Assembly: GCA_030280995.1 (NCBI GenBank)
Contig: JASXTE010000001.1
Location: 32,483,700 to 32,547,699, forward strand
DNA: 64,000 nucleotides
DNA from: Hemileia vastatrix
Taxonomy: Eukaryota > Basidiomycota > Pucciniomycetes > Pucciniales > Zaghouaniaceae
Direction: 5' to 3'
Shown here: one piece after another, positions 7,791-64,000 of the stretch
Position numbering within the stretch: the stretch's first letter is position 1
How the letters are laid out: every line of letters starts with the position of its first letter
Program-made: the position numbers and the translations under genes
The notes under the pieces: model-generated
The model's database searches: none
Told to the model about the DNA's origin: nothing
Seen by the model: the letters and a program-made list of their open reading frames with translations, nothing else

Positions 7791-10613
7791 TATCTGAGTG
7801 CCAAATGATTCCTTTGAAATTTTTTGTTTCCAGAAGTTCCATCTAATTGGATTCTCTTCCTTTGCAAGGAATATTTATCACATGACTCAATGTGTAAGAC
7901 CGTTTTAAAAGAATTTCTTTTAAATTTCCTTTTACCATTCATTCCAATTGTAAAATTATTATTAACAGGGTTAAATTTCACACCAAAATTAGTCAGAATG
8001 TCATTTCCAATGATAAAACAGTTACTACAATCAGTATTTTTTATTACCACAAAGTCACAAGTTACTCTAACATAACCATGTTGATGTTTAAAGAAAATAG
8101 CAGCTTTTTATCTATCAATGGGATGTAGTACTGATCCAAAACCTCTCCAATTTTTACTTTGAAGGTGTTCAAGCTTTGACTTATGTTCAATATCAATTTT
8201 ATGTAATGTATTTGTTTAAACAACAGAACAAGCAGATCCTGTGTCCAATACTATATTTACATTTTCTGCAGAAATGATAGCTGGAACCTTGATAGGTGTC
8301 ATTTTCAAGTTATCAGCTTGTATATCCTTAATGATTTCAGCATCTTCAAATTTCATTATGGATTCATTTGAGTCCATATTTAATATTGGAGTTTCAGAGA
8401 TGGACAAGTCATCTTCCAACATACAGACTTCATTTTCATCACTGTATGAGATATTACTGTCATAATCACTTGAATCTTTACCTTTATCTGTTTCATCTTC
8501 ATAATCATGCTGATTCACACCAATATTTATATTCTTCTCACATTTTTGACCTTTAACCCAAGTTCTATTACACTTATAACAAGTATTAGTTTCATAATTT
8601 TTAGGTACTACAGGTCCAGTAGGTTGTTTCTTCTTCTCCTGAAGTATTTTTGAATTCTCATTTTTCACAGGTTCATTATTTTGTTTATAAGTGGTGTACC
8701 TTGCTTCATACTTATGGTTAAATAATATTTCATTTCAAATATTAATAAATTCAGAATATTCATTAACCATTATTTTTCTAGCTACAACAATGTCTCTGAC
8801 AGATATAGGTAATTTATATATTATCTTATCTTTCCATAAGTTAAAATCCATGTTTGGCTCAATGGCTTTTAATAATTTATTCAAATTCATTAAAAATACC
8901 ATAGGTTTGTCACCATTCAATTGATTATACCTAGTTTTCTCATACAGTCTCTGCTGAGTGAGCCTGAATTTAGAACCTCTAATTTGTTTTTCAATTAGTT
9001 GCTTCCATTCAGCCCAAGAGTAATCTTTACCCTCACTCAAAAAAGCTTCAAACCATAATAAAGCAACATCCTTAAATAAAGAAATTAATTTTGATGTTAT
9101 TTCTTCATCTGGTAACTTATATGAGAATTTCAAGTTGTCAAATCTTAGGATAAAATGTTGTTAATCAGAGCTGGCTTCCCCATCATAAGTTGGGTACTGA
9201 TCTATCTTACGTCAGTTTTTCTGATTGGATTTTGTTTCACTAATCCTAGTTAAATACAATAACTCATTTACTCTGGATAAATGGTCTTTTAGTTCCTCTT
9301 GCACAGATTTGTGACTTACATTTGTATTTTCAGACTTGAAACTACCACCAGATGGTTTTACTTGTGGTGGTATGGGGAATGATTGAGATTCATTTTTTCC
9401 AATGAAAGGATTATTATTATACTGAGTATACTTATGATTATACTGATTCATTAGCAGATTAGCAGTTTCAATCTCAACCTTAGTGAATCTTTGAAGTAGC
9501 TCAGAGACACTCTGATTTGTCTGGGCAAAAGATAACTTTGTTCTTGCTTCTGTTTTTAATAAATGTGCCTCATACAACTTTTCTAACTCAAAGAATTTGT
9601 TTGAAAGTTCACTATATTTATTACTCAAAGAATCATACTTAAGAGTTAGAGACAAGTGTTCATTCTCTAATTCTTTATTTCTTGTTGCCAGTTGAGAAAT
9701 GTTCAATGTCATGGACAAAATTGTATCATTTGTGAGCTTAACTGTCTGTTCCTCACAATCAGTCATTCTATTCCATAATGCTGAAACAATTCTATGGACA
9801 GTAGGGTTATTATTAAAATACTCCATGTCTTCCTTCTCAAATTTTTCACTGTTTTGTGAACTTCTCATCTAGCTAGTAAGTGGCGGAAACTGAGGATTAA
9901 CTGTATTATTATTATAAATAGTACTGTTGTTATTGACAAAAGATAAGTCAGATGTATCTAAACAAACTCTGATTTTCTCAAGTCCTCCTTGATTCTCTGT
10001 ACAGATTGTACATCAATAAAATTACCTATATTGTAATCATCAGTATTGTGTTCAATTTGAGAGGGTAATCTACTTACCAGTGGATTTGTGCAAGCCCTGA
10101 TTTTTGGTGCTTTTGCATTCCTTTGAAGGGGTGATCTGAGGAAGTCTGATGAGGGGGAGGATCCCTGTTTCAACTGTGACTGGACCATTGGTGGTGGAAC
10201 CAATCCCACTTCCATTTCTCTACCAGGATTTTTTCTTGGGAATGATGTGAACCTCCTTGGGATGGGGGTTGTTGGCTTGGCTGCCCTACCTTTAAATCCA
10301 CCAAGGCTTGATTCATTTGTTGGAAACCCACCTTGCAGTTGTTTTGCAACTGCTCTACTTCCTTTAGAATGAAAGACTTTGATTCCTCCAGTTTCAGAAC
10401 CTTCTTTTCCAGATGGGACAGTTGATCCTGAAGAGGAGGTGAAGTCCTTTTGATTGTTATCTTTTATAAGAGGGCGTATTTTCCTCTATGCTCATTGACT
10501 CAGGTTGTGGGTAGGATTGACCCTCCATGGCAATGTCCTGGAGCAATCTTTTTAGCTTTAGACCTGGTGTTATAAGCAGTTTTTTCACTTAAATTGTCCT
10601 GTGGAGCACCCAT
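7790..10613 (-). pseudogene. Element D gag and protease
   Basis: The gag-frame start is ATG at 10613 (MGAPQDN). That frame hits a stop after about 37 codons and reopens downstream. A coiled-coil Gag segment (9212-9868), the capsid-like domain (8735-9200 region) and a zinc knuckle reading CYKCNRTWVKGQKC follow; the knuckle His is changed to Gln. The protease motif is VLDTGSACSVV (DTG active site), with a TAA just after it at about 8216. Inactive as it stands. Confidence 0.8.
10170..10528 (-). pseudogene. Element D ORF-X (overlapping +1 frame), frameshifted
   Basis: This is the counterpart of ORF-X in element C. It starts at ATG 10528 (MEGQSYPQPES) in a strong context (GCCATGG). One base appears to be lost after SIEEN compared with C, breaking the frame. 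It then resumes with ITIKRTSPPLQDQLS, a coiled-coil-like stretch and WKWDWFHHQWSSHS. It ends in the same TGA as in C, with a HP-plus-basic tail visible beyond the stop to 10074. Confidence 0.55.
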
Positions 10614-16710: not shown

Positions 16711-19062
16711 GATTTCTTGTTGATATTCATATGAAATATTGCTGGCACAATCACTTGAAGTACCATCCAGTTCTATTGTTTCATCATCCGTCTACTCAGT
16801 TTGTTCAACAAGATTTATCCTCTTGTCACAAACACGGCCTTTCTTGCAAGGCTTTTTGCACTTGAAGCAAGTGTTTGTTGCATACTTTTTTGGTGCAAAA
16901 GGGGCAGAAGATTTACCAACCTTTTCCAGAGGTTTCTGTTGGTAAGTGGAGGATTTCTCCAAAGGGGTCCTAGGAATGAGTCTTCTGGCATCATACTTGT
17001 TGTTTAAAAGGATCTCATTGCAAGAATTAATGAAAAAAGAAGGTTCTCTGGAGAACTCAGTCCTAGCCACTATCAAGTCTCTCAGAGACATTAGTAATTT
17101 ATAAAGGATCCTGTTCTTCCATAACTCAAACTCCATATTTGGGTCCATTTCCCTCAAGATTTTTACAAGTTTCATTAAGAACTCAATAGTTTTATCAGTG
17201 GAAGAGCTATATCTAGTTTCCTCATACTGCCTTTGTTGAGCCATTCTGAACTTGGAGCCACCAAATTGTGCTTTAATCAATTTTTTCCAATCTTCCAATG
17301 AGTAGTCATTTCTGTCCAGGAGAACAGATTCATACTACATTAGGGAAACATTGGTAAACAAAGAAATAAACTTAGACTCAATTTCCTCATCTGGGAGTTT
17401 GTAAGAGTTTTTTAAGTTATCAATTCTGCAAATAAATTGCTGCCAATCAGAAGAAGAATCACCATCAAATGTTGGGTACTGGTAAAGTTTTGGCCAATTC
17501 TTTTGATTCAAAGGAGCCTCCTTAGTACCAGCTTGTTTCTGAGTAAGGAGCAGCTGTAACTTCTCTAGTTGTGCAGTAGTCTCATTGTTTAATCCCTCTG
17601 TTGAAGATCCTGGTGCATCATCAATTTTTGATGGAAACTCAGGGGTATCAACATGCATTTCTGGAACTAATTTTCCTTTAGATGAACTAGCCACAGGTAA
17701 CTTTGGAGCATCCTGTACTATATGTTCTTTTAAAGAAATCTCAGAATATTTTTGATCATTAAACAATGAGTTCAATTTCTCCTCAATGGTTGTTAGTCTG
17801 GTTTTCACTCTTGGAAGACTAGATAAACTCTCATTGATTGTTGCAAAAGATAACTGATTTTTATTTTGAAAAGATGAAAAATGGTCATTAAATCTTTTCA
17901 AATTCATCTTATCTATCTCCACCTCCTGGAAACAGGCAGATACAGTATCTTTCAGTTTAGACAAATCATTTTTGATATTTTGCTTTAAAGCAACTTTCTT
18001 TTCATGGGTTGCCTTGTAATGAAACAATTCATCAGAAACTCTTTGTGATTCACTCCTCAATGCTTGATAACCCTGTTCAGTTAACAAACTATCATATTTA
18101 TGAGTCAGTTGCATGTTGTTCATTGTATGATTTTGTTTAGCAATAATATCCCTTAAATATTCATCATTAATGTTAGCTACATCTGGAGTGTTTCTCAATA
18201 AGGAAACAGAGTAACTTTCCAGCATCTCATAAAACTCAGGTTCAAGTGTTTCATCAATAATAGCCATATCAGGATTTATCATTGAAGTAGCAATTAGAAC
18301 TAAAGGATTAGATACATTTGAAATTTAAGCAATTTGTCTACTGTTCTCAGCCTCTACAGGTCTCACAGTCTCATCTCCGCTTCCAGAATTACCTGAAGGA
18401 ACTGAATTAGTTACAAGAAATGGTACTTGAGAATCAATAGAGGGGCTTACCAAGGTTTTCTGGGCAAGATCATATTTTTTTTTCTTCTTCTTCCTCCTTG
18501 ATAGGGGTGAGGAGGTGTGGGGTTGACTTGGCTGGGTCTTGATGGACCTGCTAGGGGCAATTGAGTCTGCTGATTTTGAGACAGGTAATCCCACTGAGTG
18601 TTCAGCCAATCCCACTGCCACTTTGATACTTCCACGTTCTCTGGCTTCTGGGGAGCCAATTGATGAAGATCCCTGGGGGGAGGAGGTCTCCTCTTCTCTT
18701 GAAGAAAAGCATCTATCTTTCTTACCTTTTCCTCTAGAGCATCAACTCTTGACCTCAATCTCAAGTTTTCTGTCCTTAATTCTTTTATGTGTGCTGAAAT
18801 GTTCTTTACTTGTTGTGGTAGTGGCATCTTTTTTATTTTGAAGCCTTTTGGAAGTTTTTCTGGGGGATTTATTACAGGTCTCTGTTCCTGATTTGTTTCT
18901 ACCAGAATTTCCACTTCCTCCATTTCTACATCCTGATTGGGGAAATGATTGATTAATTTGAGATAATTTTCTAGTTAAATGAGAACTCACAGAAGTAGCC
19001 TCATCATAATCAATTAAATCCAATTCCTCTTCATGTGCAGCAGAGACACCTTGATCAGTCAT
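16711..19062 (-). pseudogene. Element B gag (gag frame, several stops)
   Basis: The frame starts at ATG 19062 (MTDQGVSAAHEEELDLIDYD), just after a strong acceptor-like site. It stops at 18742 and 18325, inside and after the overlap with ORF-X, and again at 17335 and 16792. It carries an acidic IDYD box, a basic SKRLQNKK box, long coiled coils (17700-18250) and the capsid domain (KLYQYPTFDGDSSSDWQ to about 16990). The degenerate zinc knuckle reads CFKCKKPCKKGRVC, with His replaced by Arg. All pieces are in one frame, so decay is by point stops. Confidence 0.8.
18447..18923 (-). CDS. ORF-X of element B: overlapping +1-frame protein, 158 aa, intact
   Basis: Unrecognised protein. Its frame is +1 relative to gag; ATG at 18923 has a favourable context (GAAATGG) and it ends in TAA at 18447. 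From N to C it has an acidic start (MEEVEILVE), a basic box (LPKGFKIKKMPLPQQ), a coiled-coil-like segment (HIKELRTENLRLRSRVDALE), a proline-rich linker, a Trp-rich box (WQWDWLNTQWDYL) and a tail with HPYQGGRRRKK ending PW. Element E encodes the same order of motifs with mostly conservative changes. The gag frame across it is broken at 18742, yet ORF-X is uninterrupted. Function unknown; RNA binding or assembly is only a guess from the basic and coiled-coil parts. Confidence 0.6.
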   Translation of the reverse strand: MEEVEILVETNQEQRPVINPPEKLPKGFKIKKMPLPQQVKNISAHIKELRTENLRLRSRVDALEEKVRKIDAFLQEKRRPPPPRDLHQLAPQKPENVEVSKWQWDWLNTQWDYLSQNQQTQLPLAGPSRPSQVNPTPPHPYQGGRRRKKNMILPRKPW

Positions 19063-28647: not shown

Positions 28648-29142
28648 TTATATTTTACTTAGTATTTAGTATAAGCCTTGGGACGTGATTTTTACTTAAG
28701 TACAGCTCAAAATAACCAAATATTTGGGTCTTCTGCATATTAGTGGGTCATCATAACTCAGTGATTGCGGAAAAGAACCCTTAAAATAATTTTACTAATT
28801 TTTTATCATAAAAATTAGGTATTTACAGTAGTAACTGTATCCAATATAAACACAATTTCACTTGGTATTTGGACACCAATATAACACCCAATTAAATTGG
28901 TATTTGGTTAAATCTTGGTAAGCTACTTATTCACCCTTATAAAGGTCTAGTTAAACTTATTATTATATTTTTAACAGACTTTTTCAAATTTTTCTTATAA
29001 TTTATTTAAATAAATAAAGATATAAATTCAGGGTAAGCTCCATTGCTTTTTTATTAGTAATATCATTGCTAATATCTTTTGTCTACTAGTTCCATAGAGT
29101 TTTTTCCTTCCGTAGACATAAAATATTGTCATTTTTAACAAT
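28648..29142 (+). other. Element C leader, possible short intron
   Basis: This is AT-rich leader. TGGTAAGCTAC at 28917 matches a donor and is conserved in element D. Downstream, TTGCTAATATC followed by TTTTGTCTACTAG (AG at 29088-29089) resembles a branch site and acceptor 54 nt before the gag ATG. No ORF of note otherwise. Confidence 0.4.
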
Positions 29143-31554
29143 ATGAGTGCTCCCCAGGACAGTGTAAGTGAAAAGCCTGCTTATAACACCAGGTCTAAAG
29201 CTAACAAAAACTTTCCAGGACATCACCATGGAGGGTCAACAATACCCCCAGGGAGAAAGCATGAGTATAGAAGAAAAGGACGCCCTCTTAAAAAATATAA
29301 CTATAAAAAAGACGTCTCCTCCTCTTCAGGATCAACTGTCCTACCTGGCCAAACAGGTTCTGAAGTTGGATGAATCCAAATCACTCATGTTCAAAAAGGT
29401 AGAGCAATTGAAAAACAATTGCAAGGTAGGGGTTCAGCAGATGAATCAGGCATTGGCAGAGTTAAAGGGAGGCCAGCCCAGTCAGTCAAATCAGCAACCC
29501 CCTACCCAAGGCGGGTCAACTCACTCCCAGGAGAAAATCCTGGTAGACAAATGGAAATGGGACTGGTTTCATCAACAGTGGACAAGCCACAGTTGAAACA
29601 GGGATCCTCCACCTCATCTGACTTCCTCAGCTCACCCTTACAAAGGAAAAAAGCGCCAAAAATTAGGACTGGCAACCATCCCATGGTAAGTAGATTACCC
29701 TTTCAGATTGAACATAATACTGATAATTACAATATAGGTAATTCTATTGATGTTAAATCTGTGCAAAAAATAGAGGAGGATTTAAGAAATTTAGGTTTTA
29801 GAGTAGATACACCTGACTTGTCTTTTGTCCACAATAACAGTACTATTTATAATGATAATACAGTTAACCCTCAGTTGCAACCACCTACTAGTGAGATGAG
29901 AAGTTCACAGGAGAGTGAGAGAATCGAAAAGGAAGACATGGAATATTTTAACAATAATCCAACTGTCCATAGAATTGTTTCAGAATTGTGGAATAGAATG
30001 ACTGATTTTGAGGAGCAGACAGTTAAGCTCACTAGTGATACAATTTCATCCTTTAAATTAAACATTTCTCAATTAGCAACACATAACAAAGAATTAGAGA
30101 AAGAACATTTGTCTCTAACTCTTAAATATGATTCATTGAGTAATAAATATAATGAACTTTCAAACAAATTCTGTGAGTTAGAGAAATTATATGAAACACA
30201 TTTATTAAAAACTGAATCAAGAACAAAGTTATCTTTTGCCCAGACAAATCAAAGTGTCTCTGAGTTGCTACAAAGATTAACTAAAGTTGAGATTGAAACT
30301 GCCAATCTATTAATGAACCAGGATAATCATAAGTATAATCAATATAATAATAATCCTTTCATTGGCAAAAGTGAATCTCATTCCTTCCCTATACCACCAC
30401 AATTAAAACCATCTGGTGGTAGTGTCAAATCTGAAAATGTAAGTCACAAATACGTGCAGGAGGAAATACAAGACCATTTATCAAAAGTGAATGAGTTGTT
30501 GAATTTACCTAAGATTAGTGAGATAAAATCCAATCAGAAAAACTGGCCTAAGATAGATCAGTACCCAACTTATGATGGGGAAGCCAGCTCTGATTGGCAA
30601 CATTTTATTCAAAGAATTGACAACTTGAAATTCTCATATAAGTTACCAGATGAAGAAATAACATCAAAATAAATTTCTTTATTTAAGGATGTTGCTTTAT
30701 TATGTTTTGAAGCTGTCTTGAGTAAGGGTAAAGATTACTCTTGGGCTGAATGGAAACAACTTATTGAAAAACCATTTGGAGGTTCTAAATTCAGGCTTAC
30801 TCAGCAGAGACTTTATGAGAAGACTAGGTATAATCCATTGAATGGTGACAAACCTATGGTATTTTTAATGAATTTAAATAAAATATTAAAAGCCATTGAG
30901 CCTCACATGGATTTTAACTTATGGAAAGATAAGATAATATATAAATTACCTATATCTGTCAGAGATATTTTTGTAGCTAGAACATTAAATGTTACTGAAT
31001 ATTCTGATTTTATTAATATTTGCAATGAAATATTATTAAACCATAAGTATGAATCAAGGTATTCCACTTATAAACAATATGTTGAACCTGTAAAAATTCA
31101 GAATTCAAAAAAACTTCAGGAGAAGCAGAAAAAACCTACTGCACCTGTAGTACCTAAAAAGCATAAAACAAATACTTGTTATAAGTGTAACAAACCTTGG
31201 GTAAAAGGTCACAAATGTGAGAAAAACATAAATATTGTTGAAAATCAACGTGAATCTGAAACTGAAACTGAAAAAAGTAAAGAATCAAGTGATTATGACA
31301 GCAATATCTCATATAGTGATGAAAATGAAGTCTGTATGTTGGAAGATGATTTGTCCATCTTTGAAAATCCAATATTAAATATGGACTCAAATGAATCTTT
31401 AATGAATTTTGAGGATGCTGAAATCATTAAGGATATACAAGCTTATAACTTTAGAATGACACCTATCATGGTTCCAGCTATCATTTCTGGTGAAAATGTT
31501 AATATAGTACTGGACACAGGAGCTGCTGGTTCTGTTATTTCCACTAATACATAA
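29143..31554 (+). pseudogene. Element C gag and protease
   Basis: The gag-frame ATG at 29143 opens MSAPQDSVSEKPAYNTRSK, with a basic YNTRSK box. A TGA at 29371 interrupts it inside the ORF-X overlap. The frame reopens for the coiled-coil segment (29880-30350) and the capsid-like domain (KIDQYPTYDGEASSDWQ), with TAA at 30670. The zinc knuckle CYKCNKPWVKGHKC is intact. The protease motif VLDTGAAGSVIS is followed by TAA at 31552. All pieces share frame 1. Confidence 0.85.
29228..29596 (+). CDS. ORF-X of element C: overlapping +1-frame protein, 122 aa
   Basis: Unrecognised protein in the +1 frame relative to gag. It is counted from the ATG at 29228, which has a strong context (CACCATGG); the frame is open further upstream. 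It has an N-terminal acidic stretch (MSIEEKDALL), IKKTSPPLQDQLS, a coiled-coil-like segment (about residues 35-75) and a Trp-rich end (WKWDWFHQQW). TGA at 29594 ends it, at the same place as in element D. Beyond the stop, the frame still shows the HPY-plus-basic tail and PW-TAA ending (to 29689) found in B and E. The ancestral protein may therefore have been longer. Confidence 0.55.
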   Translation: MEGQQYPQGESMSIEEKDALLKNITIKKTSPPLQDQLSYLAKQVLKLDESKSLMFKKVEQLKNNCKVGVQQMNQALAELKGGQPSQSNQQPPTQGGSTHSQEKILVDKWKWDWFHQQWTSHS

Positions 31555-46588: not shown

Positions 46589-46634
46589 AAAAGTGTCCAG
46601 CACAAGTTTGGCCAAACTTGTGCTGGACACTTTT
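46589..46634. repeat. Perfect 46-bp palindrome in satellite unit
   Basis: Two 23-nt arms start AAAAGTGTCCAGCACAAG, with no spacer and the centre at 46611/46612. An identical palindrome is at 47194-47239. It can extrude as a cruciform or fold as a hairpin if transcribed. Confidence 0.95.
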
Positions 46635-49399
46635 GGTCAGGTGCAGTCAGATGGGAGCAATTCTCTCTTTGGAAATGAAGATAAATTTTTGATAAATAAT
46701 TTTACTAGAAGTAGTTTGATATGGCAAAATTGTCATCCTGAAGTTTTGATAAAGCTCAAGTGGATTTTTTTTCATTTTTACAAAAAAGAAAATTTAGTGC
46801 AAGTTTAGCCCTGATTGTGCTAATTTGATTCAACATCTCTTTTTTCTGTTTATGGCAGGAATTTAACTTGGATTTTAATTTTCATCTTTGATTTATTTTA
46901 TTTTACTTTATTCCCCTCATATTGCTTTTGAATAGAAGCTTATTTTTTGTAAAATAAATCATTTTCATATTTTCTTACCTTTATTTAATAATATTATAAA
47001 AGATGTAACATCATTCAGTATTAATTTGGCACACAATTTTTTGCTATACTGATAATATTAATAATATAATGGTGACAAAAAATTAATCAATTGATAAATA
47101 TGAGTGAGGCACAAATATTGAATAACAGTGGACATTTTTATAAGAAATTCCAGATGATTTAAAATGACTTGCACCCTGGCTACTCTCCCTGATAAAAGTG
47201 TCCAGCACAAGTTTGGCCAAACTTGTGCTGGACACTTTTGGTTGCATACCATCAGATGAAATCAATTCTTTTTATGGAAATGAGACTGAATGATCACTCC
47301 ATCATTGCACTAAAAGTTGTTTTATATGGAAAAATTGTCCCCCTGAAGTTTGTCCAAACCTAAGGTAGACAATTTTTTACTTTGGTAAAAAGTAAATTTA
47401 ATCCATGTTAATCCATGATGGTGCCCATTTTTTCTGAAGCCTCTACTGGCTCATAACAGTAAAAATTATACTTAATATCTTTATTTTATGTTTTATCTCT
47501 TTAATTTTAATTTTACCCTTTTATTTATCCTTTAGCTGTTAAATATTAATTTTATTTTGGTAAAACTGATAATTTTCACATTTTTTTTCATTTATTATAT
47601 AATATTATTAAAGTTGAAAAATCACCCTGTGTACATTCAGTACACATGTCTTTGCTGTACTAAAAACATTAATAATATAATGGTGACTAAAAATTAATAA
47701 AATAATAAATATGGATGAGAAAGAAAGATCAAATACCCATTGACATTTTTAAAAGGAACATAAGATTAACTGAAGAAGACTTGTACCCTAGCTACTCTGC
47801 ATCATAAAAGTGTGCAGCACAAGTTCAGCTGAGCTTGTGCTGGACACTTTTGGTTGCATGCAGTCAGATGGGATAAATTTACTCCATGGAAGTTAAAATG
47901 AATTTTTGCTCAATCATTGCACAAGAATTAGTTTTATACTGCTATACTATCCTCCTGTATTTTTGGAAAACCTCAGGTGGACACTTTTATTAATATTAAA
48001 ATAATGAAAATGTATTCCAAATCTAGAACTGGTGGTGCAAATTTTGTCTGAAAACTCAAATTATCTTTGATGGCAGAAATTTTATTTGAATGTTTAATTT
48101 CATATTTAATCACTTTTATTTTACTTCCTTATTCCTCTTTTTGCTTTCAAATATCAATTTATTTATTTTAAAACTAATTCTTTTCATATTTTTTTTACTT
48201 TTATTTAATAATATTATTAAAGATTTAGCATCTCCCAGTATGCATTTGGCTTAAAAGTTTTTTCAATACTAATAACATTAATAGTATAATGGTGAAAAAT
48301 AATGAATTAAATGATAAATATGAATGACACAGATAGATCATATACAAGTGAATTTGTTTATAAGGAATACCTGAAGAACTGAAGAAGACCTGAACCCTAG
48401 ATACTCACCATCATAAAATTTTCCAGCATAAGTTCGGTTAAACTTGTGCTGGAAACTTTTAGTTGCATGCAGTAAGATGGGATAAATTTACTATATGGAA
48501 ATGAAAATGACATTTTGCTCAATCATTGCACAATAAGTAGTTTGATATTACCAAAATTTCCTCCTGATGATTTTTCTAACCTCATCAGGACACTTTCTTT
48601 GGTTTAAAAAAAAAGAAAATATAGTCCAAGTTTAGCCCTGGTGGTGCACATTTGATCTAACACCTCTACTTGTTATTGATTGTGGGAATTTTCCTTAGAT
48701 TTTTTTTTCTTATTTGATCCCTTTTATTTTAATTTTTTATTGCTCATATTGCTTTGGATATCTATTTTTAATTTTTAAAATATATAATTTTCATACTCTT
48801 ATACCTTTATTTAATAATAATATTTAATTAAAGGTGGAACACCACATGGTATGCATTTTTCACACAATTTATTACTATAGTAATAATGTTAATAATATAA
48901 TGATGACAAAAAATTAATCAAATGGTAAATTTAAATAACACAGAAAGATCAAATACCAGTGGAAGTGTTTATAAGAAATCCTTTTTGAGTTTAAGAAGAT
49001 TTGCTGTATGCCTACTCTCAATTATAAAAGTGTCCAGCACAAGTTCGGCCAAACTTATTCTGGACACTTTTGGTTGCATGAAGTCATATGAGATAAATTC
49101 TCTCTATGGCAATGAAAATGATATTTCACTCAATTATTGAAGTAAAGAATGTTTAGTATTGTAAATTTGTCCCATGGAAGTCTGTCCAACCCTCAGGTCA
49201 AAATTTTTTAGCTATACATAAAAGTAAATTTAGAACAAGTCTTGACCTAGGCGTCCCCAACTGTCCCAACACCACTTCTGGCTCTTGATAGTAAAAATGT
49301 TACTTGTATTTTTTATTTGGTATTTGATCCCATTTATTTTCATTTTACTTTTCTATGACACTTTTTAGTTTTAAATATCAATTTATTTTTTCAAAAACT

Positions 49400-49404: not shown

Positions 49405-50541
49405 TGTCAGCCAGGCTATTCCAGGAGTCCAGTAAATGATATATAAATTATAAAACCTTAAAGAGAGGGTAAGACTTGTATTTAATGAATATAACTTAAT
49501 ATTTTATTGCATAATAAAATTATATAAGAATTTTATTATATACAAGTGTTACATTAAATTTATTGGTTATATATATTTTTATATACAATTAAATTGAGCA
49601 TAATATAATATATTCTACAAATAATGGCGCATTTTTATGTATTTAATAATTATAAATTTATATTTAATTAATTAAAAAACATATATTATAATTACAAGTG
49701 TAAAATTGATTTATAATATATTTAAATTAATTATTTAAATTTATATATTAAATAACACCTCTCATATAAAACTAAACAATAATTAATGACGCTTCTTTTG
49801 ACCCTTAATTGTCTTAGAAAAAACAAATAAATTAATTTATACTAAATTGAGATTAATTACATGATTTGTTGCGTCAAAGTATTTTTTGTTTCACTTAAAA
49901 TATCCTTTAATCAGATTGTACCATCTGTTTGGAATTATTTTTCTCATAGTTCCTATGTTCCAATCTTGTTTAGTTATTCACTATTTTCACTTACTGATTT
50001 GGGAATTAATGACGGGAAAATTGGTTTCTTAATTGGGTTTTAATTAATTTTTTCATGATTTTCTCTATATTGTTATGTTTCATTTACTCTTTTGATATAA
50101 TTGTTTTATTCCATTCTAATCATTGTATTTACAAATATAGTAGCGCTTCAGAGGACCCATTGCCTATAAAAGGGCCTTGGATAATCCCCTGTAGCCTCAT
50201 CACTTATTATACACTCAACAAATTAAATAACCATTTTATTACGTTTATGTTTTTTTTATTAGTAATACAAATCTAATTTAAATTCTATACAACAAATCAA
50301 AGGTTGCTTTAAGTCTAATAGTAATTAAAAGTGTTTTCCGTGCAGAACCCTTACATTGAATAATATTATTATTAATAAATACTAAGCTTTTGTCATCTCT
50401 CAAAGTTGCTCGCCGTTGTTTTCCCTCTTAAATAAACTTAAAATACTATTACAAATTATACCTCTTATTTTCCCTTGTTATCCTCCTTCTCTCCTCCTTT
50501 TTCTCCTATTTTTCTTACCTCTTCTAGATGACTGACCGACA
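49405..50541 (+). repeat. 5' LTR of element E (1137 bp)
   Basis: It runs from TGTCAGCCAGGCTATTCC to GACTGACCGACA. A TATA box (CCTATAAAAGGG) lies at 50163-50174. It pairs with the 3' LTR, which is 57424-61125 after subtraction of the Harbinger insert (about 1143 bp). The two differ by scattered substitutions, so the insertion is not recent. Confidence 0.92.
50165..50172 (+). promoter_or_regulatory. TATA box in 5' LTR of element E
   Basis: TATAAAAG sits inside a conserved CATTGCCTATAAAA block that recurs in the 3' LTR at 60741-60755. It is the likely RNA polymerase II promoter of the element. Confidence 0.65.
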
Positions 50542-50543
50542 AC

Positions 50544-50556: not shown

Positions 50557-51223
50557 AAACGACGACGACGATCGAGCCTGGCGACGAACGACAAAACGCA
50601 CGGACCACCTAGCAAAACGAAACTTTTGCCGCGACTGTGTTTCGAACTTGGGTTCGACATCTTAGGTTTATATAATATTAATTTTTATATTATTTTGAAG
50701 TGATTTTTCGATCACTATAGTAAGTTCACCTTTGCGCCTCTCACTCTTATTACTATATTTTTATTGCAATAACAGTGATTGTGGCTTAATTGCTGATTCA
50801 CTGAGTGTAAGTGTTCAATTTTTAAAATTTTTTTTTTCCTAGTTGACCATTATAGAGTGTTAAATCCTCTTAGTCCTAGAAGAATTGACATTTTTTAATA
50901 CAAAATTGAATTATTAATTTAATTTTTTTTTATTAATTATTGTTAATTTTGGTTGACTTAAAAGTACATTGTGCTTAGTCTCAAATATATTGCCATATTT
51001 AATATTGATAATTAATTGGTTGAATTAACTTGATTGTTATTCCCAATTTAACCTTGCAATCCATTTTTTTAAAATTAATTTTTTTTTATTTATTACTTTA
51101 TATTGAAAATTATTTTTTCTATAATTTAATTAATAAAATTTTTTTTATTATTTGAAGCAATTATTGACTAACTTTTTTATTTTTTTATAAAATAAAAAGT
51201 AAATTATAAATCTTCCCACTATT
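50557..51223 (+). other. Element E leader with candidate intron 50807-51199
   Basis: The leader has a donor-like GAGTGTAAGTG (GT at 50807) and a TTGACTAAC branch-like site (51164-51172). A T-rich stretch and an AG at 51198-51199 follow, 25 nt before the gag ATG. The box TTAGTCCTAGA at 50868-50880 also occurs in the leaders of B and I. Splicing is inferred, not shown. Confidence 0.45.
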
Positions 51224-54200
51224 ATGTCCAACAATTTGGCAGAAAAAATGGATAACATGCAAGTGGATGAAATAGAAATCGACTATGATGCTGACACTGT
51301 AAGTTCTTCTAAAGTTGGTCATAAAAAATCTTATACTAACACAAAGAATTCACATACTGCAGGATGTGGAAATGACAGGAAATGCAAACAAACCAAACCC
51401 CCTTCCCCAAGTACCACAGAAGGAAGTAAAGCCTCTAGTGCCTCAAGAAGGTCTTCCAAAAGGCTTCAAAATAAAAAAGCTTCCTCTGCCACAACAAATC
51501 AGCAACCTATCCAGTCATATAAAAGAGTTGAAGACAGAAAATATGACGTACAAAGCAAAGGTAGACACATTGTGGGATCAGGTCCAAGAACTCAGGAACC
51601 AGATTCAGGCCCAGGACCCTCCTCAGTTGCCTCCCAATCAGCCTCAGTTTCAGGCTCAACCTTCACAGCCACCCAGCTCAACCATCCAAAATCCAAATAC
51701 TATGGAAGTAGAGCAATGGAAATGGGATTATCTAATGAGTCACTACCAACAGAATGTGCAACACCCTCCTCATCATCAGCCTGGCCCATCCAGAACACCC
51801 AATTTCCATCCACCTCCTCATCCCTACCAACAAGGCAGGAGAAAGAAGGCCCAAGCACAATCCCAAACCCAGTCCCAGGGGAAGTTTCCTCCTCTGCCAT
51901 GGTAAGTAATTTGGTTGATAGTCACTTGGGTATGTTTTCTAATAAATCTTCTTCTGCAGTTAATATTATTGAACATGGTGAAAGAACAGTTAAACCTGTT
52001 AAAAGACAGCTTCCTGTAACTAGTAGCCCTATTGATGGAATTAGCAAATTGTCATTTGATGAACCTTTACATTTAACTTCTACATCTTTAATTAATCCTT
52101 CTCTTGCAATTAAAAATGATTCTGTTCCCCCTGAAATCTATACCTTAATTGAAAAAACTTCTGAGGAAATATTGAAAGATACCCTTGATTTTAATATTGT
52201 AAAAGACAAACATGTGAGAGATGTGTTAATCCATGAAAATGATAGATTAAATAATTTACACTTGCAATGTAAAGTGAGTTCTTCTGTACAAGATACAGCT
52301 TATTTGAAAATCAAAGAAACCTTGAATATTGTTCTTAGTCAACAAAAACAAATAAGAAGTGACCATAGAGCTATCTCAGATAAAAATATCAGTCTACATA
52401 AGACCTTGAGTGAATTGAAACCCCTTATTGAGGAAAATTATTCATTCAAAAATGAAATAAAATCTCTGCAAAATGAGTTTAAGAAGCTAAAAAATGATTT
52501 CCATGCACTAAGTACCAAACACTCAGTTTCTGAGGACAGAAATGTTCTATCTCTTGCAAAAGTAAATGACCAGATGTCTGAAATTCCAAGAATAAGAAAC
52601 TATGTGTCTGACCTACAGGAAAAGTTCTCAACCTTAACCATCAATAATGAATTAAATGAGATTTCTGTAAATAAGCTGCATAAAAATAAAGGGAAAAAAC
52701 CTGAGCAAAGTTCATCCTTTCTTCCTCATATTTCAACCATTAAACAAACTGACAATGAGTCTGTAAAATCTTTTGCTACTAGCAAAAAATCTTGTGATGG
52801 TCATGCACCAGCTGTTTCTGTAAATAATGAAATTTCTGAACACCTGGCTAAACTTCAGGAATTATTAATAATAAATAATTCAAACAAAAAAGTGGACCAT
52901 CCCAGTAGTCAGATAAATTGGCCTAAGTTAGACCAATATCCTACCTTTGATGGTGATTCTTCCTCTGATTGGCAACACTTTATCCAGATAATTGATAATT
53001 TAAAGAGATCTTATAAACTACCTGATGAGAAAATTGTTTCTAAGCTAATTTCTTTATTTTCCAATGTAGCCTTGATGTGGTATGAATCTGTCCTCTTAGA
53101 TAACAATCATTATACATGGAATGATTGGAAATCCTTGATTGAGAATCAGTTTGGTGGTTCAAAATTCAGGTTAGCTCAGCAGAGACTGTATGAGAATACT
53201 AGATATGTATCCTCCTCTGTTGAAAAGCCCATTGTTTTTCTGATGAAAATAACTAAAATCCTTAGAGCAATTGATCCAAAGTTGGATTATGATATTTGGA
53301 GAGATAAAATCTTGTATAAATTACCAAATTCTCCTAGGGATTTGATTGTTGCTAGAACTGAGCATGTAAGGGAAAATTCTTCTTTCATTAATATCTGTAA
53401 TGAAGTACTACTCAACCATAGATATGAACCAAAGAATTACCTTAGTAAATCTTATAATGATCAGAATAAACCTTCTATAAAGCTCCCAGAAAAATCTGGT
53501 AAACCCTCTGCCCCAGTTGCACCTAAAAAATATGCAAAAAATACTTGTTATAAATGTAACAAACCGTGGCAGAAGGGTCATGTTTGTGACAAGAAAATTC
53601 ATCTTGTTGAACAAAATGAAGACACTGATGAAGTTGAACTTGATGTCAATAATTCTTCCAGTGACTGTGAAATTAATATCTCCTATGACAATGAATCTGT
53701 TAAAGATGTTTTAATGTTGGAACATGATGTCCATTATTTAAATAATATATCTGAGGATTGTGTATTGAATTTATCTTCAGTAGAAAATGCTGAGATAATT
53801 AAAGATATTACTAACAATTCTATTCCTATATCCCCTTTAAAGGCACCTGTTATCATTAATGGTAAAAATGTTGATGTAGTTCTTGATTCTGGTGCTGGAG
53901 GAAGTGTAGTATCTGAAAAAGCTTTGGCTTCAGTGGATAAGGAATATTTGAGTAAATTATTGCCTATAACTTCTGAAAAATGGAGAGGATATGGTTCTAC
54001 CTTATTTCCTATTGGCAAATACAAAACCTCTGTATTTTTCAAATATAATGGTGGTTTTGTCAGAGCTATTTGTGAGTTTGTTGTCATGAAAAATGATAAT
54101 TTGAGCAATTGGTTTATTATGGGAAATGATATTTTAACCATGTTTGGTGTGAAACTGGACCCAGCAAATAATTGCTTTACCTTAGGAATGAATGGGAAAA

Positions 54201-54661
54201 GAAAATTCAAAATTTCTTCTCCTAGACCTTCTGGGCATTTGTTGAAATCTTGTAACTCACTGACCCAATGTAAAGGTAGACCAACAACTGAAATGGATGA
54301 TTTATTACATGTAATAAATACTGCTTCTTTTGGTGATCAGTTGACTAGTGAGCAAAAAGATTCTATTGTTGCCTCTATTACCTCTTTCCCTATGGCTTTT
54401 GCTCATGGGTCTCATGTCTTGGGAATTTTTCAGGAAGAAATGAAGATTACCTTATCCTGTAATTTGAGTGATATTCCTCCTACCCTTAAGAAAAAACCAT
54501 ATCCTGCTTCTCCATCAAAAAGAAAAGATATTGAAGATAATATTGAAACATTATTGAAAATGAATATCATTGAAAAAGTGGATGTCACCCCCAAATATTG
54601 TGTCATCTCCCCAGTCTTAATTTCTTATGAAAAAGATAAAGCTAGATTATGTGGAGATTAA
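51224..54661 (+). CDS. Element E Gag-protease open frame (1145 aa)
   Basis: This is the part of the polyprotein that can still be translated from the first ATG. Gag would form the cytoplasmic particle that packages element RNA, and the aspartic protease would mature it. The capsid-like domain starts KLDQYPTFDGDSSSDWQ. The zinc knuckle spacing is CX2CX7HXC, a compact form often seen in chromovirus Gag proteins. The protease is VVLDSGAGGSVVS. The first 150 nt are coded only in this frame; from 51372 to 51905 it overlaps ORF-X. The frame ends at TAA in RT. Confidence 0.85.
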   Translation: MSNNLAEKMDNMQVDEIEIDYDADTVSSSKVGHKKSYTNTKNSHTAGCGNDRKCKQTKPPSPSTTEGSKASSASRRSSKRLQNKKASSATTNQQPIQSYKRVEDRKYDVQSKGRHIVGSGPRTQEPDSGPGPSSVASQSASVSGSTFTATQLNHPKSKYYGSRAMEMGLSNESLPTECATPSSSSAWPIQNTQFPSTSSSLPTRQEKEGPSTIPNPVPGEVSSSAMVSNLVDSHLGMFSNKSSSAVNIIEHGERTVKPVKRQLPVTSSPIDGISKLSFDEPLHLTSTSLINPSLAIKNDSVPPEIYTLIEKTSEEILKDTLDFNIVKDKHVRDVLIHENDRLNNLHLQCKVSSSVQDTAYLKIKETLNIVLSQQKQIRSDHRAISDKNISLHKTLSELKPLIEENYSFKNEIKSLQNEFKKLKNDFHALSTKHSVSEDRNVLSLAKVNDQMSEIPRIRNYVSDLQEKFSTLTINNELNEISVNKLHKNKGKKPEQSSSFLPHISTIKQTDNESVKSFATSKKSCDGHAPAVSVNNEISEHLAKLQELLIINNSNKKVDHPSSQINWPKLDQYPTFDGDSSSDWQHFIQIIDNLKRSYKLPDEKIVSKLISLFSNVALMWYESVLLDNNHYTWNDWKSLIENQFGGSKFRLAQQRLYENTRYVSSSVEKPIVFLMKITKILRAIDPKLDYDIWRDKILYKLPNSPRDLIVARTEHVRENSSFINICNEVLLNHRYEPKNYLSKSYNDQNKPSIKLPEKSGKPSAPVAPKKYAKNTCYKCNKPWQKGHVCDKKIHLVEQNEDTDEVELDVNNSSSDCEINISYDNESVKDVLMLEHDVHYLNNISEDCVLNLSSVENAEIIKDITNNSIPISPLKAPVIINGKNVDVVLDSGAGGSVVSEKALASVDKEYLSKLLPITSEKWRGYGSTLFPIGKYKTSVFFKYNGGFVRAICEFVVMKNDNLSNWFIMGNDILTMFGVKLDPANNCFTLGMNGKRKFKISSPRPSGHLLKSCNSLTQCKGRPTTEMDDLLHVINTASFGDQLTSEQKDSIVASITSFPMAFAHGSHVLGIFQEEMKITLSCNLSDIPPTLKKKPYPASPSKRKDIEDNIETLLKMNIIEKVDVTPKYCVISPVLISYEKDKARLCGD
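51372..51905 (+). CDS. ORF-X of element E: overlapping +1-frame protein, 177 aa
   Basis: Unrecognised protein read in the +1 frame within gag. The frame is open upstream; the first ATG is at 51372 (GAAATGA context). Layout: PQ-rich start, basic box PKGFKIKKLPLPQQ (29-42), coiled-coil-like ISNLSSHIKELKTEN to about residue 81, a Pro/Gln-rich linker, WKWDYL (116-121), HPYQQGRRKK (150-159) and the end PLPW. Element B has the same box order: over 29 residues after the KIKK box about 17 are identical in this frame, against about 7 of 28 in the gag frame. The stop TAA (51903) overlaps the gag-frame ATG at 51899 and a GGTAAGT. The product could be made by leaky scanning, reinitiation, frameshift or splicing. 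Function unknown. Confidence 0.65.
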   Translation: MTGNANKPNPLPQVPQKEVKPLVPQEGLPKGFKIKKLPLPQQISNLSSHIKELKTENMTYKAKVDTLWDQVQELRNQIQAQDPPQLPPNQPQFQAQPSQPPSSTIQNPNTMEVEQWKWDYLMSHYQQNVQHPPHHQPGPSRTPNFHPPPHPYQQGRRKKAQAQSQTQSQGKFPPLPW

Positions 54662-57391
54662 AGAGCTTTAAATACTTATACTGTTGATGATATTTATCCT
54701 TTACCCAGAATTAATTCAATACATGCTACCTTGCAAGGTGCAAAATTTATTAGTTTTCTGGATGGTAATAAAGGTTATCATCAGGTTCCAGTTGAGAAAA
54801 ATTCTCAAAATTTTTTGCTTATTGCTACTCATATGGGAATATATAAGTATGTTAGGATGCCATTTGGCCCTAAAAATGCTCCTTCAGTTTTCCAGAAGGT
54901 CATGGATAACACTTTCCATCAAGAAATTATTGAGGGTTGGCTCATGGTTTATATTGATGATATTATTGTTTTTTCTAAAACTTTTGATGAACATATAATT
55001 CACTTGAATAGAGTTTTCCAAAAAATGGATGAAATCAATATGACCTTATCTTTAAAAAAGTGTAAATTTGGTTTTCAATCTTTGAAAGTCCTTGGCCATG
55101 TTGTGTCAGGCTTACAAATTTGTGTAGACCATAATAAAGTTGCTGCCATTCAAAATGTGAAAGCACCAACTTCTGTAAGAGAAATCCAAAGTTTTTTTGG
55201 TATGTGTGGCTATTATAGACAATATATTAAAAATTATCAGGTCATAGCCTTGCCTCTTACAAAACTGACCAGAAAAGATGTTGCTTTTCTCTGGAATAAT
55301 GACTGTCAAAAAGCTTTTGATACATTAAAAATTTGCTTAATGAAAGCCCCTATATTGGCTCTTCCAGATTTTAACAAGCCATTTGTCCTTTATACAGATG
55401 CTAGCTTTATTGGTCTGGGTGCTGCCCTTCACCAAAAGCAAATTATTAATGATAAATCCTCAGAGGTTGTAATTTGTTATATTTCAAGAACCTTAAGAAA
55501 TAGTGAATTGAAATATGGTGCCACTCAATTGGAGTGCTTAGCAGTTGTTTGGGCTCTTGAGAAACTTCATTACTACTTGGATGACCAAAAATTTGAGTTG
55601 GTAACTGACTGTAGTGCTGTGAAATCTCTCTTAAACCTCAAAACACCTAACAGACATATGTTCAGGTGGCAACTTGCTGTTCAAGAATACAGAGGAAGGA
55701 TGGCTATTATCCATAGAGCTGGAAATGTTCATTCTAATGTTGATATGCTCTCCAGATTGCCTCTGCCAAATAATGACTCCAATCCTGCTTATGTACCTGA
55801 AGATGATACTGTTCATATACATGGTATATTTATAGTTTATATGGAAGAAGAGTTATTACAGTTAATACTGGATTCATATGATAAAGATTCTGACTTAAAT
55901 AAATTAGTTACTATTTTGAATGATCCTAAGAATGCTTCAATTCAAGCATTAATAAAAACTCTTCCTGCAAAGTACCAAAATGCTTTAAGTAAAGGAAAGT
56001 TTTCTATTGAAGATGGTTATATATATTATAGAAGGAAGCTTACCAATGTAATTGTTATTCCTCCTTCAATGAAAGAAACTATCCTCAAACTTTGTCATGA
56101 TGACATATTAGCTGGTCATTTTGATCTTGAAAAAACATTGATTAGAATCAAAAACACTGCATGGTGGGCTAATATGTCTGAAGACACAAAATTATATGTT
56201 GAATCTTGTGATTCCTGCCAAAAATCTAAAAGTTTAACTGGTAAGAGAGCAGGGTTATTACAACATATTGAAGCACCTAGTGCTCCCTGGCAAATCATTA
56301 ATATGGATTTTGTCACTGGTCTTCCTGTTGCAGGTAAAGACAGCTTTAACTATTGTTGGGTAATAGTGGATAGATTCACAAAAATTTGCAAATTTATTCC
56401 AACCCACAAAGATGTATCCACCAAAGAATTAGCTTTCTTATGGTGGTCTTACATGTTTAATATTATTGGTTTTCCAAAAGCCATTATCTCTGATAGGGAT
56501 CCAAAATTCACTTCTGAGTTTTGGACCTCTTTGATGGATATTTGTGGCTGTGAGTTAAAATTGTCTACAGCTCACCATCCTCAGACTGATGGTCTAGCTG
56601 AAAGAATGATTCAAACTCTGGAAGATATGATTAGAAGGTATTGTGCCTTTGGTTTAGAATATAAAGACAATGACAGATTTACTCATGATTGGGTCACTCT
56701 TTTTCCTGGTCTTGAATTTGCATATAATAGCACTGTTCATTCTGTCACTGAGAAAAAGCCTTTTGAGCTTTGGTTAGGTTATGTCCCAAACACTCCTGCT
56801 CATCTTCTCAATAATAAATTACCTAAGTTGGAACTACACCCTGGTGTAAAATCTTTTATGCAAATGCAACAGCTATGCAGAAAACATGCTCAGAGTTGTA
56901 TTGATAAAGCATTTGAATATGAAAAGAAAAGATGGGATAGATCCCGTAAAGAATACACATTTAACAAGGGTGATGAAGTGTTGATCTCTACTGTCCATTT
57001 CAATTTACAAGGTAACCACAAATTAAAAGATCCTTTTGTAGGACCATTTGTTGTTAAAAGAATGGTTGGTGATAATGCAGTAGAAGTTGTATTGTATTCT
57101 CCATATGATAGGAAACATCCTGTCTTTCCCATTTCTTTGCTTAAGCCTTATACTTTCAACAGTGACTTATTTCCAAAAAGAAGAGGAAGACCTAAGAAGA
57201 ACCCTCAGGAAGTCACAGAAACAGCAGAAATTGATAAAATTCTCAATGATAGAATTATCACTTCTGAAAGAGGTACTGAATATTTATTGAGATATAAGAA
57301 CAAATCATCTGAACATGATGCATGGATACCAGGCAAGGAGATTTCAAATCTCCCTACTCTGTTGAAAAAGTACAAAAAGAAAAAATCTTAG
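54662..57391 (+). pseudogene. Element E Pol downstream of the stop (RT-RNase H-integrase-chromodomain)
   Basis: This is a continuous open frame of about 909 codons after the TAA, in phase with gag. RT blocks are SFLDGNKGYHQVPV, MPFGPKNAPSVF, MVYIDDIIVFSK and GHVVSGL. RNase H is VLYTDASFIGLGAAL. Integrase has the zinc ligands CHDDILAGHFD and CDSCQKSK, then D,D35E. The chromodomain (EIDKILNDRI, EYLLRYKNKSSEHDAW) is the C-terminus and in this group of elements is thought to guide integration to chromatin. Without readthrough of the TAA it would not be made. Confidence 0.88.
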
Positions 57392-57423: not shown

Positions 57424-57715
57424 TGTCAGCCAGGCTATTCCAGGAGTCCAGTAAATGATATGTTATCTTATAAGACCTGAAAGAGGGCGTAAGAATTGTA
57501 TTTAATGTATATAAATTAATATTTTACTGCATAATAAAATTATATAAGTATCTTATTACATATAAGTGTTATATTAATTTTATTGTTTATATAAATTTTT
57601 TATACATATAAATTAAACATAATACATATTATATTCTACAAATAATGGCGCATTTTTATGTATTTAATAATTATAAATTTATATTTAATTAATTGAAAAA
57701 CATATATTATAATTA
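57424..57715 (+). repeat. 3' LTR of element E, left part
   Basis: It starts TGTCAGCCAGGC and follows the 5' LTR until AATTA (57715), where the Harbinger element interrupts it. The LTR resumes at 60272. Confidence 0.9.
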
Positions 57716-57746
57716 GGGGGTGTCAGTTCTGGCAAATCCGCACTTA
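57716..57746 (+). repeat. Left terminal inverted repeat of Harbinger element
   Basis: GGGGGTGTCAGTTCTGGC followed by AAATCCGCACTTA; the reverse complement is at 60239-60269. An imperfect internal second copy of the end (AAGGGTGTCAGTTATGACC) lies at 57827-57843. Confidence 0.92.
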
Positions 57747-58085
57747 AATTAAGTGCGGATTTCAAACCAAATCAGCACTTACAAATCAGCACTTAAATTT
57801 TGCAAAAAAGTCACTTATTTCAAAAAAGGGTGTCAGTTATGACCTCAAATCAGCACTTTTTTCCCGTTTTTTTTCACAACCACATTTTGGCCACAAAACA
57901 TCCCTTCATTTCTTACCCCATCCCTGTCACATGTGACACACTGACCTTCCTTGCTACCTACCCATCAATCCTCGGCACACACCCCTTCCTGACATTTTCA
58001 ATATTTTGACCAGGCATGTTTACATTCTTTTTTACTTATTTCTTCTACTTTTTAATCTTTTTTCTTGTTATGTGCCAGTTTCATA

Positions 58086-58172
58086 ATGCCTCCCAGACAT
58101 TCCAAATCTCAAAAGGTAACTCAAAAATCTGCTTCGTCACAAAAGTCTCCTCGTAAAGCAAGGATTACATAG
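58086..58172 (+). other. 28-codon basic ORF in Harbinger element
   Basis: MPPRHSKSQK followed by a Lys/Ser-rich stretch, read divergently from the transposase. Autonomous Harbinger elements usually carry a second gene for a Myb/trihelix-type DNA-binding protein. None is visible here, and this short ORF could be its leftover start. Weak support. Confidence 0.2.
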
Positions 58173-58255
58173 AAAAAAAATCAGTGACTTTTTCTATTAC
58201 TTACAACTGTTTTTACAGAATTGAAAACTATGTTTCAGCTAATATTTTATGGAAG

Positions 58256-58289
58256 TGAACTCTGTTCTTCGCCCGAAGAACAGAGTTCA
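58256..58289. repeat. 16-bp perfect inverted repeat with 2-nt loop
   Basis: The arms TGAACTCTGTTCTTCG and CGAAGAACAGAGTTCA are separated by CC. It lies in the non-coding half of the Harbinger element. Confidence 0.9.
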
Positions 58290-58702
58290 TCCTCCTATTT
58301 TCACACTCTGTTTGCACCAATCTCCATCCCTTTCAATTCTATCAACACATGCTTGTCTTCCCTCCCCATGCCTTTCGCTATCCTCCCAGCCCCATTGTAT
58401 GCCATCCTCTTTTGATCCCCATTTCACCCCTCTCAACCTCTCCCAGACCCTTTTCTTCATTTAAAATGCCTCGGAACCCTTAATCTTCCCTTCCAACTCT
58501 TTCCCAACCTTTGAGTGACTGAAAAAATATGCGTTTGCTGAAAATATGCGATTTCATGTTGAGTTGATGAAAGAAAACACAGAGAGAAAAAAAAATAAGA
58601 CTTTAACAGCAAATTCAAAAACCAAAAAAATATGCAAAAAAATTTACCATTCTCAGTGAATAATACATGCAAATTGATAATTTGAAGAGAAAGAGAAAAA
58701 AA

Positions 58703-60269: not shown

Positions 60270-60271
60270 TA

Positions 60272-61125: not shown

Positions 61126-61130
61126 AAACT

Positions 61131-63655: not shown

Positions 63656-64000
63656 ATGTGTGACAACAATGACATTGTAAGTAATAAGGTAAAACCTTAT
63701 AACTTAAGACCTAGAGCTGAAAGACCTGTTACAGGACATTCAAATGGAGGGCCAGGACTCTCCCATAATCAACAACACTCCGTCAATGTCTCTGGAGGAA
63801 ATGGAAAAGCTTTTAAAGCAGGTTTCAATAAAGAAAACAAAAAATACTTTACAAGAACAAGTTCACTCCCTATCCACCCTACTGAACACCTTGACAATAA
63901 GAGTCAACAATATAGTGGACCAGATCAACAATCTGGAAAAGAGAGCAGCTCAAGGTTTCATAGAAGTCAACCAAGCTCTAGTGGACATAAAGACTCAACC
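63656..64000 (+). CDS. Element G gag, N-terminal 115 codons (partial)
   Basis: ATG at 63656 (AAAATGTG). The frame is open to the last base. It starts MCDNNDIVSNKVKPYNLRPR, whose basic YNLRPR box corresponds to YNTRSK in C and D and perhaps SKRLQNKK in B and E. A GHSNGG segment follows, and the rest is Ser/Gln/His-rich. No capsid domain is reached before the edge. The whole stretch from 63744 is shared with ORF-X in the +1 frame. Confidence 0.7.
   Translation, partial: MCDNNDIVSNKVKPYNLRPRAERPVTGHSNGGPGLSHNQQHSVNVSGGNGKAFKAGFNKENKKYFTRTSSLPIHPTEHLDNKSQQYSGPDQQSGKESSSRFHRSQPSSSGHKDST
63744..64000 (+). CDS. ORF-X of element G, N-terminal 85 codons (partial)
   Basis: ATG at 63744 in good context (CAAATGG), +1 relative to gag, open to the edge. 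It starts MEGQDSPIINN, then SMSLEEMEKLLKQVSIKKTK, LQEQVHSLSTLLN and a coiled-coil-like region ending VNQALVDIKTQ. Element C has MEGQQYPQ, SMSIEEKDALL, ITIKKTSPPLQDQLS and MNQALAELKG in the same order, so the frame is conserved as protein. Function unknown. Confidence 0.6.
   Translation, partial: MEGQDSPIINNTPSMSLEEMEKLLKQVSIKKTKNTLQEQVHSLSTLLNTLTIRVNNIVDQINNLEKRAAQGFIEVNQALVDIKTQ

Follow-up and report, generated by a model that had tools for sequence, protein, structure and literature searches.

A gag-overlapping gene probably reached through a frame-switching intron in chromoviruses of Hemileia vastatrix

Fungal chromoviruses are usually drawn as plain gag-pol elements. Among other retrotransposons, the p22/p18 copy-number control factor of Ty1 is read in the gag frame itself, and the L1 SpIREs are an evolutionary dead end. 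The closest precedent for the gene considered here is CERV of Cer1, a Ty3/gypsy-related long terminal repeat (LTR) retrotransposon of Caenorhabditis elegans; CERV is a spliced, gag-overlapping protein of 517 amino acids, encoded by five exons and with three predicted structured domains, that is required for export of the genomic RNA (PMC10309623, partial text). Here, we analyze an open reading frame, ORF-X (hereafter X), that lies over the start of gag in several Ty3/gypsy elements within a 64,000-nucleotide (nt) window of the Hemileia vastatrix genome (747.6 Mb, the contigs being tens of Mb long; contig JASXTE010000001.1, positions 32,483,700 to 32,547,699; all coordinates below are those of the window). 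From the sequence comparisons, we consider it highly probable that X is exon 2 of a transcript in which splicing switches the frame, the unspliced RNA being read as Gag-Pol.

The likeness between X and CERV lies in the transcript, each being encoded, as predicted for X, by a spliced mRNA that starts with a gag-frame N-terminus and continues in another frame, and the potential leucine zipper and candidate basic nuclear localization sequence of CERV can be counted as a further likeness (PMC10309623, partial text). In contrast to CERV, the predicted spliced X product has only ~132-205 residues, one small coding intron and a coiled coil with disordered parts, and its host element is a chromovirus, probably a fungal one; the H, M and G structured domains of CERV do not appear in the structural model of X, which has two main helices. 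X is likened to CERV by transcript structure and description and is not filed as a member of the CERV family. In Arabidopsis, splicing of the Ty1/Copia element EVD similarly yields a second, shorter mRNA, for a short GAG isoform, alongside the unspliced Gag-Pol RNA, but the spliced EVD mRNA is dedicated to GAG whereas that of the X elements would encode a different protein (PMC8892269, partial text). Ty1 p22/p18 is, like X, a second small product within gag, and acts on Gag (PMC8458377, partial text). The L1 SpIREs resemble the intronless copies described below in being retrotransposon RNA copies that lack an internal stretch through splicing (PMC5860796, partial text); L1, however, is a non-LTR element, and the spliced form of the X elements encodes a selected frame. 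In the literature searched, of which coverage was partial and included few subscription papers, no spliced or overprinted accessory gene of a fungal chromovirus was found by title or abstract start, and a word search of the paper 'LTR Retrotransposons in Fungi' returned no wording on an additional ORF, overlapping, an intron or splicing.

A sequence-only reading of the window had placed open or nearly open frames in the +1 phase over the gag start at five places, E, B, C, D and G, and translation confirmed them. In element E, exon 2 with X is fully open and occupies 51363..51905 on the forward strand (180 codons plus TAA, +1 to gag); the ATG at 51372, previously taken as the start, is probably not the true one, given that exon 2 begins at 51363. 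X is also fully open in B (18447..18932, reverse strand; previously 18447-18923). In C (29219..29596, forward strand), it runs to a TGA at 29594, with a homologous tail (HPY...PW) continuing to 29689, and the copy in D (10074..10537, reverse strand) is broken, sharing the TGA of C and carrying in addition a 1-nt frameshift and a 9-nt deletion. The frame in G (63735..64000, forward strand) is cut by the window end and is completed in the neighbouring stretch L048 with the same Pro-Trp-stop end. Inspection of the five places bore out the proposed common order of KIKK box, coiled coil and WKWD-like box, and the parts follow one another as D-V/I-x-M, KIKK box, coiled coil, WKWDW-like box, HPY-G with a basic tail, and Pro-Trp-stop.

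A profile built from four X sequences matched only these five places of the window at E <= 0.001, all other matches being 0.1 or weaker. Applied to 200 kb of other DNA of the same genome (20 stretches on three contigs, chosen without regard to X, half of them adjoining the window), it found seven further loci, N1-N7, and the gene is therefore common. The TGA of C and D stands before the basic tail; we considered it as a family-specific end of X, constraint on X being weaker beyond it in the C-D comparison (p = 0.02), but it is not a general end, as N1, N4, L073 and L075 read through to Pro-Trp-stop. In E, B, C and D, the X frame ends inside TGG-TAA-G, which contains a donor-like GTAAG (51900-51908 in E), and in E and C a gag-frame ATG overlaps the X end.

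Between the gag ATG and X lies a GTRAGT...CAG/GAY signal that delimits an intron of 55-64 nt. Its length is 1 modulo 3 in 10 of 10 non-duplicate loci that keep the GT donor, so that its removal places X in the reading frame of the gag start codon, and splicing would join 7-25 gag codons to X. Exon 1 of E (51224..51298, forward strand) comprises the gag start codon and the first 25 codons, which would be common to Gag and the spliced X product, and intron 1 of E (51299..51362, forward strand, 64 nt) has a GTAAGT donor, a CTAAC branch-like site and a CAG acceptor. The corresponding features are an exon 1 of 24 codons (18991..19062) and an intron of 58 nt (18933..18990; GTGAGT...CAG) on the reverse strand in B, an exon 1 of 7 codons (29143..29163) and an intron of 55 nt (29164..29218; GTAAGT...CAG) on the forward strand in C, and, also on the forward strand, 7 codons (63656..63676) and 58 nt (63677..63734; GTAAGT...CAG) in G; the 55-nt intron of D (10538..10592, reverse strand) has the donor TTAAGT. 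Six of the seven N loci have an intron of 55 or 58 nt, again 1 modulo 3, N6 with the donor GTAAGA and N4 without an upstream gag ATG. The probability that an intron signal of this kind arises by chance, with the gag residues fixed, is 0.016-0.024 for each of E, B, C and G, whereas D is without the signal.

For the E family, 40 sequences were aligned (the window copy and 39 fetched ones); L046, with an unalignable gag-start and donor region, was left out, and 39 were analysed. Their donors read GTAAGT in 13, GTGAGT in 25 and TTAAGT in one, and the acceptor CAG is kept in 38 though the neighbouring gag residues vary. All three copies without a GT donor, D of the C family (10587-10592, minus strand), L011 of the E family and N7 of the B family, read TTAAGT.

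Reverse transcription of the spliced RNA should leave intronless junctions in the genome, and such junctions were found in three families: at 18 places for E (15 exact, among which a base diagnostic for two sub-families occurs in either form), at 7 places for C (each with 1-3 mismatches) and at 42 places for B (one exact, the rest with 1-3 mismatches, the places being counted from pattern matches alone). Reversed control patterns gave 0 matches for E, C and B. Four of the 18 E places (L068-L071) are continuous from the LTR and leader to exon 2 and gag, exon 1 included; the sole large gap is 51299-51362, its borders within 1 nt, and there are smaller differences in the leader. In four of the 7 C places (L072-L075), 29164-29218 is absent; X is open to Pro-Trp-stop in two of these (L073, L075) and broken in the other two (L072, L074). 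Moreover, L072 and L075 are without two stretches of the C leader that have GT-AG borders (with a 1-nt slide), namely 28918..28977 (forward strand, 60 nt, GTAAGC...CAG) and a second one of 83 nt in L072 (29033..29115, forward strand) and of 65 nt, to 29097, in L075; the C leader is thus spliced too, with alternative acceptors. In a phylogenetic tree, L068-L071 appear to occupy two separate positions among the intron-containing copies; three of the four are almost identical, and a single event followed by multiplication may account for these three. As judged from these genomic intronless copies, intron 1 is shown to be spliced in vivo. A second intron after the X stop (at TGG-TAA-G, possible length 52-58 nt) was also considered and rejected as a general intron: by eye, X would stop immediately if it were removed and the gag frame would not be regained, and the stretch is still present in L068-L071.

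Splicing of intron 1 would also accommodate a scheme in which the spliced RNA serves as the Gag mRNA as well, ribosomes reinitiating after X at the gag-frame ATG in ATGGTAA, so that both proteins come from spliced RNA. The overlap of this ATG with the X stop in E and C, the many intronless places and the gag phase that stays open for 300 codons beyond X in the four examined E intronless copies are consistent with this scheme, which we nevertheless regard as unlikely, considering that B and D have no ATG there and that gag is held open through the overlap, as reinitiation would not need.

Comparisons between copies support X, not gag, as the frame with conserved amino acids within the overlap. 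The count of 17 identities in 29 X residues after the KIKK box, made by hand for E and B in the sequence-only reading, was reproduced by eye on the alignment, and over the whole exon, with a separate alignment for each frame, 70 of 158 residues are identical in X vs 49 of 154 in gag. Differences at X positions 1/2/3 number 66/53/94 over 158 codons between E and B (chi-square p = 0.002) and 17/9/55 between C and D (p = 2e-10); just beyond the overlap, C and D differ at gag positions 1/2/3 by 14/16/44. The phase of selection switches at the X end, X third positions varying in the overlap and gag third positions directly after it. When changes were classed by their effect in both frames, all 6 pairs compared had fewer X-nonsynonymous than X-synonymous changes (pNN/pSN 0.57-0.67), whereas gag-nonsynonymous changes were no less frequent than gag-synonymous ones in the same pairs (ratio 1.07-1.88). 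For selection on X, the C-D comparison gave 0.115 vs 0.693. X position 3 is the most variable in 15 of 15 within-family pairs, which share members and are not independent, N3-N5 and G-N2 being too alike for significance. The phase-specific selection on X is replicated in four families, E, B, C and G. The excess of +1-frame conservation claimed earlier is thus present, and of the proposal that a second protein is overprinted on a Ty3/gypsy gag start, the coding frame is supported by the selection tests in the four families, whereas the free-standing ORF gives way to one reached by splicing. X-synonymous sites in C-D (29219-29594 vs D) changed at 0.69 per site vs 0.40 at downstream gag-synonymous sites; this fast change could be a sign of diversifying selection on gag, but the overlap is GC-rich.

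Among the 39 E sequences, singleton variants represent mostly post-insertion decay and variants found in at least two sequences were mostly inherited from active elements, with the singletons serving as an internal neutral control for the shared variants. X-changing variants make up 108 of 133 singletons vs 29 of 57 shared variants (p = 4e-5), and 15 of 26 variants present in three or more copies (p = 0.018); gag-changing variants, at 98 of 133 vs 44 of 57 (p = 0.72), are not depleted. In exon 1, synonymous and nonsynonymous changes stand at 6:1 among shared variants and at 4:12 among singletons (p = 0.019). X is open in 27 sequences, gag is open in the overlap in 22 and both are open in 17, and frequent frame breaks in young copies did not appear: among the 12 most E-like fetched sequences (L009-L020), X is open in 11 and gag, in the overlap, in all 12. 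Taken across copies, these substitution patterns show the X frame to be under purifying selection.

When X codons were fixed and synonymous codons shuffled, 7.1, 6.6, 5.6 and 3.8 gag stops were expected in E, B, C and G, vs 0, 1, 1 and 0 observed in the overlap (P <0.0002 to 0.007). Gag is thus maintained as an open frame that acts mainly as a linker, and in X it is the residues that are maintained. No constraint on gag residues in the overlap was detected by the pair and 39-sequence tests, the position counts being more even. The overlap would therefore represent an overprinted gene pair in which both frames are maintained, X by its amino acids and gag by its openness. With gag codons fixed, the openness of X had P values of 0.11, 0.013, 0.14 and 1.0 in E, B, C and G under a synonymous shuffle and of 0.004, 0.002, 0.04 and 1.0 under codon permutation. 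Thus, X openness given gag is unremarkable, a weak result that alone lends X no support, and it is conservation and splicing, rather than openness, that make the case for X. This lack of unusual openness, along with the near-identity of three of the four examined E intronless copies, is what would be expected if there were no X protein and the constraint acted on nucleotides or RNA, the intronless copies being deletion lineages; phase-specific selection in four families, junctions at GT-AG borders in three diverged families and the additional leader introns make such an account extremely improbable.

We infer that X is translated. In the mechanism that we propose, each element would produce an unspliced and a spliced mRNA, both presumably driven by a single 5' LTR promoter. 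The unspliced RNA, presumably also the genomic RNA, would be read from the gag start codon straight into Gag-Pol. Removal by the spliceosome of the 55-64-nt intron after the first 7-25 gag codons would shift the frame into ORF-X, so that the same start codon leads to X with the conserved Pro-Trp-stop as its end. The X protein would be small, its N-terminus acidic or short and followed by the KIKK basic box, the coiled coil, the WKWDW box and a basic tail, and gag within the overlap would be a loosely constrained linker that mainly needs to stay open.

Alternatively, splicing could be incidental and ribosomes could reach the ATG of X (51372 in E) on the unspliced RNA, through leaky scanning or internal initiation. 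This ATG is present in E, B, C, D, G and N1-N5, and among the 40 aligned E sequences only L025 deviates (CTG). We consider this route improbable: the codons between the acceptor and the ATG are conserved in the X frame as well (D-V/I-x-M in the five window copies), N6 has no ATG there, exon 1 of the E copies is constrained whereas the intron read in the gag frame is not, and the intron is really spliced, as the E, C and B junctions indicate. Programmed +1 ribosomal frameshifting would suit a frame that is +1 to gag and has an upstream region in common with it; however, inspection by eye, without a search aimed at such sites, revealed no slippery site common to the copies, X-frame stops occur in the intron region of B and G, and splicing already supplies the frame change, so we give frameshifting hardly any credence.

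Several observations weigh against translation of X from a spliced transcript as we propose it, or against parts of that proposal. Most copies conserve the ATG of X, although a codon used only internally would not have to be kept. Variants present in at least three E copies fall at X positions 1/2/3 as 2/12/12 (singletons, 48/45/42); position 2, the gag wobble position, is as high as position 3, and these counts therefore also fit constraint on gag. The exon 1 of the B family has no clear third-position excess (4/1/4 in B-N3 and 4/2/6 in B-N5). D (55 nt) and N7 (59 nt) have no GT donor, the E intron, 64 nt long in 38 of 39 sequences, is 63 nt and out of phase in L031, and with a stricter pattern no branch-like site was found in G, N2, N6 and D. 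Junction places are not equivalent to events, as some are possible duplicates that share a contig at a distance of ~8 kb, and some are located on small contigs. Searches of protein databases with E X and with the four-sequence profile, which reach only proteins of 0.55-1.75x the query length sharing short words, found no relative at E <= 1, and conservation of X is therefore known only within one genome. For an export role in particular, the argument is one of analogy, and the AlphaFold model of E exon 2 (mean predicted local distance difference test score, pLDDT, 61.5) has two main helices and no recognisable fold.

In that model, the confident helix spans residues 42-84, a weaker one spans residues 118-133 and confidence is otherwise low. 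Matches of X to PDB and PHROGs were weak only and were read as unspecific coiled coils, and those to the Pfam families bZIP_1 and TSC22 fell below the curated cut-offs. A coiled coil with basic clusters, in the product of a spliced RNA whose element needs unspliced RNA for Gag-Pol, would suit a regulator of splicing, export or packaging. By analogy with CERV for Cer1, X may tentatively be viewed as a nuclear or RNA-binding regulator that enables export or packaging of intron-containing RNA, although we do not favor this over all other functions; as an alternative, X could be a partner of Gag or a copy-number controller.

The element that carries the E copy of X is flanked by a 5' LTR (49405..50542, forward strand, from LTR comparison) and a 3' LTR (57424-61126, forward strand) that is divided by an insertion of ~2.5 kb at 57716-60270. 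The long frame at 51224..54661 (forward strand) is open across the intron and ORF-X, with an in-frame stop probably inside the reverse transcriptase (RT); it was called gag based on its placement before RT in the same frame, and no Pfam family matched its 1145 residues. The pol part (54731..57391, forward strand) contains, by Pfam, RT, RNase H and integrase, in the Ty3 order, followed by SH3_Tf2-1 and a C-terminal chromodomain (PF00385, residues 833-884, E = 1.9e-07). The LTRs, the long frame and a pol that ends in a chromodomain identify E as a chromovirus. The nearest named database proteins of E pol come from Puccinia striiformis and Austropuccinia psidii, with 41-48% identity in the five best-scoring named matches, and a scan of viral_contigs with pol found no relative. 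Flanking LTRs were found for E, C, B and D. Elsewhere in the window, a tandem repeat at 45884-49226 comprises six copies of a ~606-nt unit, with related pieces at 44824-44992 and 61284-61452, and by eye the leaders of B (19200-19560, minus strand) and E (50840-51010) contain several YAGTTGA...CCT-like units tens of bases apart.

A broader scenario, which we put forward as speculation with low confidence, is that a clade of fungal chromoviruses splits its life cycle into two RNA forms by means of the frame-switching intron. Normal copies would make both forms, donor-dead copies (TTAAGT: D, L011 and N7) would make only genomic RNA and borrow X, and intronless copies would make only the X-type mRNA and still be copied; X would be a Rev/CERV-like regulator shared in trans, the first in a fungal retroelement as far as the literature was searched. 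If X and its spliced transcript are as proposed, at least one common chromovirus lineage would use a retrovirus-like two-RNA strategy, for which the known parallel is a nematode element. The gene lies in another frame of gag and annotation could therefore miss it, and the intronless copies in the genome make splicing testable from sequence alone. The finding would also prompt one to ask by what route element RNA that retains the intron is exported by the host.
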